Made by a program: the position numbers and the translations under genes. The notes beneath the pieces were generated by a model, which was not told the DNA's origin, made no database searches, and saw only the letters and a list, made by a program, of their open reading frames with translations. Below are positions 1,251 through 5,687 of a DNA stretch of 46,170 nucleotides, piece after piece. Position 1 is the stretch's first letter, and each line of letters begins with the position of its first letter. This DNA is from a virus. Location: positions 1-46,170 of IMG/VR virus record IMGVR_UViG_3300037847_006658. One strand, written 5' to 3'.

Positions 1251-1802
1251 ATGGAAACCATTGGAGCAACACATTCTGATATTGCAAAATTAGTTTCTAA
1301 CAAAAATATCGTAGCGGTATTTCAAGGGAGATCTGAAGGAGGTCCTAGAGCATTAGGCAACAGATCTTTGTTATACGATCCTAGAGATACTAGCGGAAAA
1401 GATTATATGAATGGCATTAAAGGACGCGAATGGTTTCGCCCTTTGGCAGCATCTGTAATGAAAGAACATGCCGATGAATGGTTTCACATGTTGGGACTAG
1501 AAGAGTCTCCGTTCATGACATATTCTTTTCAAGTAAAGGAAGAAAAGAGAGATAAAATACCTTCAGTGGTGCATGTTGATGGCACTTGTAGAATTCAAAC
1601 AGTTAGTGAGGAAGACAACTACCATTACTATCACATCATCAAAGCATTCTATGAACTGACTGGTGTGCCAATGGTATTGAATACCTCATTCAATCTGGCA
1701 GGAGAACCAATTGTAGAGACTGCCACTGATGCATTGAAGACAGTGAAGAACTCTACGATTCAATACTTATATTTCCCCGAACTTGAGTGGTTAGTAAAAT
1801 GA
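1251..1802 (+). CDS. Carbamoyltransferase, C-terminal (YrdC-like) domain as a separate protein
   Basis: A 183-residue protein that equals only the C-terminal domain of NodU/CmcH/TobZ O-carbamoyltransferases (Carbam_trans_C). Motifs seen: GGPRALGNRS (about residues 30-39), REWFRPLA, HVDGTCRIQTV (from residue 108) and LNTSFN (about 143-148), all in family order. In TobZ-type enzymes this YrdC-like half makes carbamoyladenylate from carbamoyl phosphate and ATP. Its partner domain is encoded immediately downstream with an ATGA overlap, the reverse of the usual order. No clear Shine-Dalgarno is seen; an AT-rich inverted repeat (about 1224-1250) abuts the ATG and may affect initiation. Confidence 0.85.
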   Translation: METIGATHSDIAKLVSNKNIVAVFQGRSEGGPRALGNRSLLYDPRDTSGKDYMNGIKGREWFRPLAASVMKEHADEWFHMLGLEESPFMTYSFQVKEEKRDKIPSVVHVDGTCRIQTVSEEDNYHYYHIIKAFYELTGVPMVLNTSFNLAGEPIVETATDALKTVKNSTIQYLYFPELEWLVK

Positions 1803-2890
1803 ATTATACCGTTTCAGTAAACTTAGCAGGACATAATTCTTCTATTTGTATTCTCAAAGATGGAGATATAGAACTCTTTATAGAAGAAGAGAGATTGAGT
1901 AGATGGAAAAGGGACAACAGGATTCCTCTTAGAATCATTGAAGTGATTAAAGATTACACAACCTATATTGACACCTTAGTTCTAATGAACTTTGGATACG
2001 ATTACATGGTTGACTATGTTAAAAATCACATTAGTAAAGAAGGAATTGTTGTTGATAATATTGTAAGAGATGACATGGGATATCATCATCACCTGTCACA
2101 TGCTGCTAGTGGATTTTATTGTTCAGGATTTGAAGAAGCAATCTGTCTTGTCATGGATGGTTCTGGTGGGACGTTCATGTTCAATGACAAGAGTATGAAT
2201 GAAACTACATCAATATATCATGCAAAGTATCCAGCAGTATTTGATGTGAAATACAAAAGGTTTAACTACATTGTAGAGCAATGGGATACTTTCAATTTTA
2301 TTGAAGACGTAACAAAAACTGTTGGTGATGAATTTGGATGTCCAGTAGACATCGAATATCAACATGATGTTGGTAATATGTATTCTGCAGTTTGTAAGTC
2401 TATGGGATTTGGTGAACTGAATGAAGGTAAGTTGATGGGACTATCCTCTTATGGCAAACCTAATTCAAATCTTCCAGACATTCTCTGTGATGGACTAACG
2501 AATATGCAGTTAGTAAAACCAAATAGACAGATGACAGTTTCTCTTGAGGATAAAGAGGACTGGGCATATGCAGCACAAAAAGCAGCAGAGAAAATGATTG
2601 TTGAAAGAGTTGATTATATTGTAAATAACTTTGATTGTAAGAATCTTGTATTCTCTGGTGGATGTTCTCTAAACATTCTTGCCAACTCTGAGATTAAAAA
2701 GAAATATCCTGAGTTAAATGTATTTGTAGATCCGATTGCAACAGATGCAAATCAAAGTTTGGGTGCAGCAAAGTATGCATACCACATGGAAACAAATGAT
2801 ACTAAGGTTAGAAAATTAGATACCATTTACTTGGGTAGACAATACAAAATAAATACCCTCAGAAAGGAGATTACTAACTTTTTAAAATGA
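1799..2890 (+). CDS. Carbamoyltransferase, N-terminal (Kae1-like) domain as a separate protein
   Basis: A 363-residue protein matching the N-terminal Carbam_trans_N domain of NodU/CmcH-type enzymes. It has an N-terminal ASKHA-like strand (VNLAGHNSSICIL), the metal site HHHLSHAAS (about residues 96-104), MDGSGG, EGKLMGLSSYG (about 209-219) and FSGGCSLN (about 285-292). It ends where the C-terminal domain would normally begin. The start at 1799 is chosen because its ATGA overlaps the stop of the other half; an upstream in-frame start at 1787 is possible. The two proteins probably form one enzyme that transfers carbamoyl to a hydroxyl group; the acceptor is unknown. Confidence 0.85.
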   Translation: MNYTVSVNLAGHNSSICILKDGDIELFIEEERLSRWKRDNRIPLRIIEVIKDYTTYIDTLVLMNFGYDYMVDYVKNHISKEGIVVDNIVRDDMGYHHHLSHAASGFYCSGFEEAICLVMDGSGGTFMFNDKSMNETTSIYHAKYPAVFDVKYKRFNYIVEQWDTFNFIEDVTKTVGDEFGCPVDIEYQHDVGNMYSAVCKSMGFGELNEGKLMGLSSYGKPNSNLPDILCDGLTNMQLVKPNRQMTVSLEDKEDWAYAAQKAAEKMIVERVDYIVNNFDCKNLVFSGGCSLNILANSEIKKKYPELNVFVDPIATDANQSLGAAKYAYHMETNDTKVRKLDTIYLGRQYKINTLRKEITNFLK

Positions 2891-3274: not shown

Positions 3275-3445
3275 ATGTATGAAGAACTAGACACATTTGA
3301 AAGAGCACTTCAACACTTTGGTACAAGAGTAGAAGTTATCGCTGCCATGGAAATGGGTGGTAGAATTTCTGCTGAAGATGCGTATCAAATGATTAAAGTG
3401 GAAGTAAAGGAACTTAAAAAGGTTAGAAAAGCAGAGAAGAAATGA
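3275..3445 (+). CDS. Small conserved hypothetical protein upstream of thyX
   Basis: A 56-residue helical protein (MYEELDTFERALQHFG...) with a Lys-rich C-terminus (VKELKKVRKAEKK). It starts 2 nt after the preceding stop, and its own stop overlaps the thyX start (ATGA at 3442-3445), so translation is coupled to thyX. No domain is recognised. Confidence 0.6.
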   Translation: MYEELDTFERALQHFGTRVEVIAAMEMGGRISAEDAYQMIKVEVKELKKVRKAEKK

Positions 3446-4080
3446 ACGATTGTAAATTGATTTCGGTGACGCCAGATGCTGAAAAACATATGGCATACTG
3501 CGCTCGCGTGAGCAACCCAGCAAACCAAGAGAATGAAAAGTTCTCTGGACTTCTGCGTTATTGTGTGAAACACCAGCACTGGAGTATCTTTGAGCAGGCA
3601 TACATGACTCTGGAACTTGAAACTACCAGGGGAGTAGCAGCTCAAGTGCTCCGGCATAGGAGCTTCACATATCAAGAATTTTCACAACGGTATGCTGATT
3701 CTTCTCTACTTGCAGAGACGATTCCTCTCCCAGAACTCCGTAGGCAAGACACTAAGAATCGTCAGAATTCTATTGATGATATTGATGCCTTTACGCGACA
3801 AGAGTTTCAAATCAAAATGCAGAAACACTTTGAAGAGGGAATGAAACTCTACAAAGAAATGCTTGATTCAGATATCGCAAAGGAGTGTGCTCGTTTTGTA
3901 CTCCCCCTCGCCGTGCCCACAAAAATCTACATGACAGGCTCTGTGAGATCGTGGATTCATTATATCGATTTGCGCTCTGCAAACGGCACACAGAAGGAGC
4001 ACATGGACATTGCAAACTCTGCAAAGGAAATCTTCTGTGAACAGTTCCCTGCTGTCGCTGAGGCAATGGAGTGGGTGTAA
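3442..4080 (+). CDS. thyX: Flavin-dependent thymidylate synthase ThyX
   Basis: A 212-residue protein with the ThyX signature RHRx7S: RHRSFTYQEFSQRY at residues 71-84, with S81 as the signature serine. ThyX makes dTMP from dUMP using methylene-tetrahydrofolate, FAD and NADPH, supplying thymidine for phage DNA synthesis. The length matches the family. It is coupled by ATGA to the small gene upstream, and its end overlaps the downstream oxygenase. Confidence 0.95.
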   Translation: MNDCKLISVTPDAEKHMAYCARVSNPANQENEKFSGLLRYCVKHQHWSIFEQAYMTLELETTRGVAAQVLRHRSFTYQEFSQRYADSSLLAETIPLPELRRQDTKNRQNSIDDIDAFTRQEFQIKMQKHFEEGMKLYKEMLDSDIAKECARFVLPLAVPTKIYMTGSVRSWIHYIDLRSANGTQKEHMDIANSAKEIFCEQFPAVAEAMEWV

Positions 4081-4940: not shown

Positions 4941-5687
4941 GTGCCAACTAAAAAGAAAAATCCAATTCCCTTCGGAATGTCTAATAAGCATATGAAGAGA
5001 AAAAAACCAATCAATCTAGATTTTATTAAAGAGATTGAACCTCTCACAGATAATCAGAAAGCGTATTTTGATGCCTATCAAAAGGATCAGAATATTGTTG
5101 GTTACGGATGCGCTGGAACAGGTAAAACGTTTGTTGCCCTTTACAACGCACTCACTGATGTTCTTAGTGAAAAGTCTCCATATGAAAAGATTTACATTGT
5201 CCGTTCTCTAGTCGCTACAAGAGAGATTGGATTCTTGCCTGGAGATCACGAAGACAAGTCTTCTCTTTACCAGATTCCTTACAAGAATATGGTGAAGTAC
5301 ATGTTTGAGATGCCAGATGATTCTTCTTTTGAAATGTTATATGGCAACCTCAAGACTCAAGGAACGATTAGTTTCTGGAGCACATCATTCATTCGTGGTA
5401 CAACTCTGGACAACGCAATCATTCTGGTTGACGAATTCCAAAACTTGAATTTCCACGAACTTGATAGTATAATCACCAGAGTTGGAGAGAACTCTAAGAT
5501 TCTGTTCTGTGGTGATGCCACTCAAACTGACTTAGTTAAACAGAATGAGAGAACTGGTATCGCAGACTTCATGAAAATTCTTAGACTCATGCCATCTGTA
5601 GATATTGTTGAGTTCCAAGTAGAAGATATCGTGCGTTCTGGACTCTGCAAAGAATACTTACTTGCTAAAATGGAAATGAATCTATGA
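4941..5687 (+). CDS. phoH: PhoH-like P-loop ATPase
   Basis: A 248-residue protein with Walker A GCAGTGKT at residues 56-63, the PhoH-type LTDNQKAYFDA preceding it, a conserved VRSLVATREIGFLPGD segment, and Walker B ILVDEFQN. PhoH-family proteins are ATPases related to the helicase core, very common in marine phages and part of the host Pho regulon; their exact role is unsettled. The start is GTG at 4941; an in-frame ATG at 4977 is the alternative. Its stop overlaps the next gene. Confidence 0.92.
   Translation: MPTKKKNPIPFGMSNKHMKRKKPINLDFIKEIEPLTDNQKAYFDAYQKDQNIVGYGCAGTGKTFVALYNALTDVLSEKSPYEKIYIVRSLVATREIGFLPGDHEDKSSLYQIPYKNMVKYMFEMPDDSSFEMLYGNLKTQGTISFWSTSFIRGTTLDNAIILVDEFQNLNFHELDSIITRVGENSKILFCGDATQTDLVKQNERTGIADFMKILRLMPSVDIVEFQVEDIVRSGLCKEYLLAKMEMNL

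Follow-up and report, generated by a model that had tools for sequence, protein, structure and literature searches.

Organization of the gene pair

The window, that is, the whole stretch of 46,170 nucleotides analysed here, belongs to a T4-like phage, with homologues of gp59, gp32 and gp53 as well as thyX and phoH. It is of marine cyanophage kind, and its closest phage records are those of Synechococcus and Prochlorococcus phages. Two overlapping genes in the window encode the two domains of a carbamoyltransferase of the TobZ/NodU/CmcH kind, and these genes and their neighbours are listed below.

1251..1802, + strand: C gene (Carbam_trans_C, YrdC-like), an intact open reading frame with an ATG start, 183 aa
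1799..1802, + strand: ATGA, where in the sequence the start codon of the N gene overlaps the TGA stop of the C gene
1799..2890, + strand: N gene (Carbam_trans_N, Kae1-like), an intact open reading frame with its ATG at 1799, 363 aa including that ATG
3442..4080, + strand: thyX (flavin-dependent thymidylate synthase; Pfam Thy1, E 3e-48), a neighbour outside the enzyme
4941..5687, + strand: phoH, recognised by its tblastn similarity to PhoH as annotated in S-RIM44 and others, context only

Pfam searches matched Carbam_trans_C (PF16861) to the first gene with 211.8 bits (cut-off 27, E 6e-63, profile 1-164 of 170) and Carbam_trans_N (PF02543) to the second with 104.9 bits (cut-off 24, E 8e-30, best stretch profile 109-345 of 346), so that both halves score above the curated cut-offs in the HMM check proposed with the original prediction. 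PHROG 1601, a full-length phage carbamoyltransferase model (length 528), was divided between the two genes without repeat: the C gene covers 356-523 and the N gene 2-338, and the break between the two proteins falls in the inter-domain linker. Open reading frame coordinates, Pfam and PHROG 1601 thus agree with the original prediction of a C-domain gene followed by an N-domain gene with an ATGA overlap. The original prediction also had the first protein start and the second end at the natural domain boundary, and all six signature motifs quoted in it were found in the two proteins. The N gene has an additional in-frame GTG at 1787. Translational coupling of the two genes through the ATGA at 1799-1802 is proposed. 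Only one C match and one N match were found in the whole virus record (G000, 53.6 kb).

The sequence features of TobZ/NodU-type enzymes are present in the pair, namely N and C domains over the cut-offs, the metal ligands and the catalytic His, Lys and Ser; they are carried by two genes with C first, and not by a single chain with N before C. A circularly permuted carbamoyltransferase, a single chain with C before N, does not describe the locus either, which encodes two chains.

Predicted folds and catalytic residues

Each protein was modelled alone by AlphaFold2, with rows from annotated phage records left out of the input alignments. The C protein gave pLDDT 93.7 and pTM 0.90, and a Foldseek search with this model returned TobZ, GdmN, NovN and VtdB at TMq about 0.9 (TobZ 0.90), with HypF and TsaC/Sua5 far weaker behind them (E-values 6e-20 for TobZ versus 5e-5 for TsaC). 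Matches to VtdB, NovN, GdmN and TobZ were also obtained by phmmer. K57 and S146 of the C protein align with TobZ K443 and S530, and H11 of the N protein with TobZ H14, the three TobZ residues being those mutated according to PDB titles; this single-residue mapping comes from phmmer offsets and arithmetic, and TobZ chain numbering seems to run 6 ahead of the PDB-title names. In split viral C proteins K57, R63, R114, N144 and S146 are 100% conserved, as they are in fused ones. The C protein is proposed to be the carbamoyl-adenylating subunit.

The N protein gave pLDDT 93.4 and pTM 0.91, and its model matched TobZ, GdmN, NovN and VtdB at TMq 0.62-0.69, followed by TsaD/Kae1 (E-values 2e-16 for TobZ versus 8e-11 for TsaD). 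The predicted metal ligands are H96, H100, D119 and D315 (numbered without the initiator Met). They correspond to the iron ligands of GdmN, H133, H137, D156 and D333 (PMC9633730), with identical spacing of the first three, and are 99-100% conserved in split viral N proteins, as in fused ones. We propose that the N protein is the Fe-dependent carbamoyl-transfer (acceptor) subunit. Its identity to its nearest relatives is only ~40%.

The pair is likely to be an O-carbamoyltransferase of the TobZ/NodU/CmcH kind that consists of two subunits and acts as a functional heteromer, association and catalysis being what we infer from the comparisons reported here. The two proteins would be co-produced through ATGA stop-start coupling; the YrdC-like C protein would convert carbamoyl phosphate and ATP to carbamoyl-adenylate, and the Kae1-like N protein, holding Fe by two His and two Asp, would transfer the carbamoyl group to an acceptor hydroxyl. 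C and N would probably associate, with the labile carbamoyl-adenylate handed from C to N.

Comparison with known enzymes

The TobZ-type enzymes (TobZ, GdmN, NovN, VtdB, CmcH, NodU/NolO) share with the window pair both domains, the metal ligands, the carbamoyl-phosphate/ATP residues and the fold, but each is one chain, whereas the window encodes two proteins with the C-domain gene first. TsaC (YrdC) and TsaD (Kae1/YgjD) also place an adenylate-making YrdC-like protein and a Kae1-like transferase on separate chains; they differ in transferring threonylcarbamoyl to a tRNA substrate, and their structural similarity to the window proteins is distant (TMq about 0.6). Pfam TsaD was below cut-off against the window proteins, and a TsaC/TsaD t6A pair was rejected, as the TobZ type ranks first by far in both structure and sequence. 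The separate enzymes of t6A synthesis and the structural similarity to both of them could suggest that the two proteins act apart, with C making carbamoyl-AMP or another adenylate for some other use and N pairing with a host enzyme. We regard this as improbable, given the tight gene overlap, the recurrence of the two as a pair, the TobZ type as the closest match, and the single C and single N found in whole phage genomes.

The 5-hydroxymethylcytosine (5hmC) carbamoyltransferase of phages (eLife 2021, PMC8670742) is an O-carbamoyltransferase with the same Pfam pair and with thymidylate-synthase-family genes alongside. It is a single 63 kDa chain with ThyA-family (PF00303) neighbours, whereas the window enzyme is split and its neighbour is of the ThyX family (PF02511); on both counts the locus departs from the 5hmC type, for which one chain and a dCMP hydroxymethylase gene (PF00303) on the same contig are expected.

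Among cyanophages, the 'Nol-like carbamoyltransferase' of PHROG 1601 is the same family, and S-RIM44, Sf-FP1, Sf-CH3 and S-SCSM1 share the split, swapped pair; PHROG 20469 is a C-only family. In cyanophage genome papers the carbamoyltransferase is taken for pyrBI or for an enzyme that opens pyrimidine synthesis (PMC9146016, PMC10436341). The domains of the related phage genes are O-carbamoyltransferase domains, contrary to the pyrBI naming, and no aspartate carbamoyltransferase (pyrBI) domain was matched by Pfam in the window proteins. These results correct the annotation of the gene as one of pyrimidine synthesis, and also that of genome records, which list several copies and leave the halves unnoticed. 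In the solved O-carbamoyltransferase structures that we found, a single chain holds both the domain that makes carbamoyl-adenylate and the domain that consumes it. The natural split indicates that the two halves can exist as distinct proteins, and would make each half-reaction accessible alone.

Distribution of the split pair

Scans with single sequences (query P0001 or P0002) found no close relatives in viral contigs, so alignments were used instead. Domains were scanned in 328 sequences, namely the window together with loci taken from phage records, from IMG/VR and from GTDB genomes. This survey of single-chain, split and swapped forms, which had been suggested with the original prediction, recovered 263 single-chain N-C genes, the majority form, and 79 adjacent C-then-N junctions in ~69 loci, and no fused single-chain C-N protein among >320 loci. 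Part of the loci share one contig, and removal of near-copies left 49 non-redundant C>N pairs. The rarity implied in the original prediction did not hold: the split arrangement is common among marine T4-like phages, and annotated isolate genomes contain it unremarked, namely S-RIM44, Sf-FP1, Sf-CH3 and S-SCSM1, of which S-RIM44, Sf-FP1 and S-SCSM1 are complete and have the genes recorded as two or four 'Nol-like carbamoyltransferases'. A literature search, largely without subscription papers, found no description of a split carbamoyltransferase. The enzyme is of a known kind, and its widespread two-gene architecture is not described in the literature searched.

The complete genomes of S-RIM44 and Sf-FP1 each have one place for C and one for N. 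If the system is functional there, it would be as this pair or with a host partner, and the pair is most likely a heteromer. S-SCSM1 carries the pair twice in tandem, C N C N, with all four genes annotated 'Nol-like carbamoyltransferase'. Tandem arrays of the forms C N C N, C N N C N and C N N C N N occur in L002 2187-5769 (S-SCSM1), L113 and L120; they are old, since their repeats fall in separate clades of the C tree.

Cellular genomes seldom have the split: the C domain was found in 76 of 386 cyanobacterial genomes, always in long single-chain frames except for one broken copy. The only clear standalone C frame among 398 genomes of its phylum was that of the soil bacterium Paenibacillus pinihumi (L272 2811-5540), where two sister N genes (99*) flank C in the order N-C-N with residues intact. 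That locus looks like a biosynthetic cluster, with an AMP-forming ligase-like gene before it and an aminotransferase-like gene after it (both named by eye).

Maintenance of the pair

The ATGA 4-base overlap was observed at 39 of the 79 C>N junctions, and the spacing lies between -20 and +16 bases in all but one of them. Median dN/dS was 0.12 for C and 0.14 for N. Taken together, the conserved overlap and purifying selection indicate that the swapped pair is maintained. Distances among C and N proteins are correlated, with a Mantel r of 0.71 for the 49 split pairs versus 0.48 in fused proteins, a value that carries no third-gene control and part of which shared phage genealogy alone could yield. 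Inter-domain mutual information carried over weakly from fused to split proteins, the top 200 pairs lying at the 63rd percentile, a figure confounded by column variability, and this measure was set aside as too weak.

Ordinary single-chain genes being the majority form, the pair might be thought a decay remnant or assembly rearrangement of one of them. This reading has a negligible probability, and the comparative data refute it: the order recurs in independent isolates and in many contigs, the open reading frames are intact, dN/dS is about 0.13 and active-site residues are conserved. A sequencing rearrangement, which the original prediction had named as a possible refutation, is ruled out by the same order in independent isolates and contigs. 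The functional heteromer proposed there, whose two proteins would assemble physically, is supported by the conserved catalytic residues, purifying selection, coupling, recurrence and the one C and one N of S-RIM44 and Sf-FP1. Counting against the heteromer are additional N genes that have no C to themselves, which show that N can occur unpaired. In L007 (3750-8412), L008 (1744-5119), L013 and L028 one or two standalone N genes come after a fused N-C gene; their metal ligands are conserved, and the vicinity holds no separate C gene.

Genomic neighbourhood and possible acceptors

The flanking sequence that was fetched contained thyX in 47 and phoH in 50 of the 67 viral C>N loci, versus 13 and 12, respectively, of 179 other loci. 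Swapped pairs are mostly found between thyX and phoH, and fused genes often beside sugar genes: PfkB-kinase genes were near 58 and cytidylyltransferase genes near 63 of the 179 other loci, and neither was near any of the 67 C>N loci. The pairs of S-RIM44, Sf-FP1, Sf-CH3 and S-SCSM1 adjoin thyX and phoH and lie downstream of thyX, unlike the window pair, which lies upstream of thyX with the thyX/phoH address otherwise kept. In 20 of 67 loci the swapped pair has a radical SAM gene beside it, usually between the pair and phoH (e.g. L005 5381-6175). The pairs most closely related to that of the window (L014, L090, L094, L096 and L091-L095) have other genomic addresses, and in some of them Pfam identified sulfotransferases and 2OG-Fe(II) oxygenases as neighbours, by which the acceptor is not settled.

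A single-chain phage relative is reported to carbamoylate 5-hydroxymethylcytosine (PMC8670742). This enzyme and the thyX address together make a nucleotide or DNA a candidate acceptor, but the probability that the acceptor is a glycan or a small molecule is no lower.

Probable origin of the swapped order and possible exchange of subunits

N-C-N trios are frequent, involving 23 C genes, and include L091-L095, L185-L230 and Paenibacillus pinihumi (L272), with residues intact in both N; in the L091-L095 trios both N genes fall inside the clade of the window. The swapped order most likely arose through such a state, in which N would have been duplicated around C and the first N then lost, leaving C-N. 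The original prediction of a step towards circular permutation is not upheld, as the N-C-N operons and extra N genes point to duplication and partner exchange, and no fused C-N was seen among >320 loci. A permuted chain would have its domains in the order of these overlapping genes, yet an intermediate towards a circularly permuted single chain is very unlikely, the pair being old and diverse and the N-C-N neighbours offering a simpler route.

Constraining standalone C sequences to one clade caused no likelihood loss (p-AU 0.60), and a single clade of standalone N sequences was rejected by the AU test; these tests used quick tree searches, and the C test, on a short alignment, has low power. 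Probable refusions nested in the split group (L016) blur the labels 'fused' and 'split'. The trees suggest that the C subunits form one lineage and their N partners several, a hint that a single activating subunit may work with acceptor subunits that can be exchanged. The split forms may thus serve as natural examples of an acceptor half exchanged against a related activating half.

C could be a carbamoyl-activating subunit shared among several Kae1-like acceptor subunits that are interchangeable, and not a strict one-to-one partner. This is a possible but less favoured reading. It would explain the N-C-N operons, in which both N keep their residues intact, the C-N-N-C-N-N array of L120, the standalone N genes behind fused N-C genes and the differing outcomes of the two AU tests. 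It sits less well with the stable pairing suggested by the Mantel correlation and adjacency and with the one C and one N of the window, and the quick trees, the low power of the C test and the apparent refusions weaken its phylogenetic support. A wider scenario is more speculative still: in marine T4-like phages an old freestanding activating subunit would have changed its Kae1-like partner repeatedly and served several at once, at the thyX-phoH address and with nucleotides or phage DNA as acceptor, in contrast to single-chain forms in sugar-modification cassettes.

A clade of short N proteins (~280 aa), represented by L005 4546-5406 and its relatives L171, L183, L190 and L205, lacks a central stretch and apparently carries Asn at the position of TobZ H14, where the His is invariant elsewhere. 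Its members possibly use a different acceptor or mechanism.
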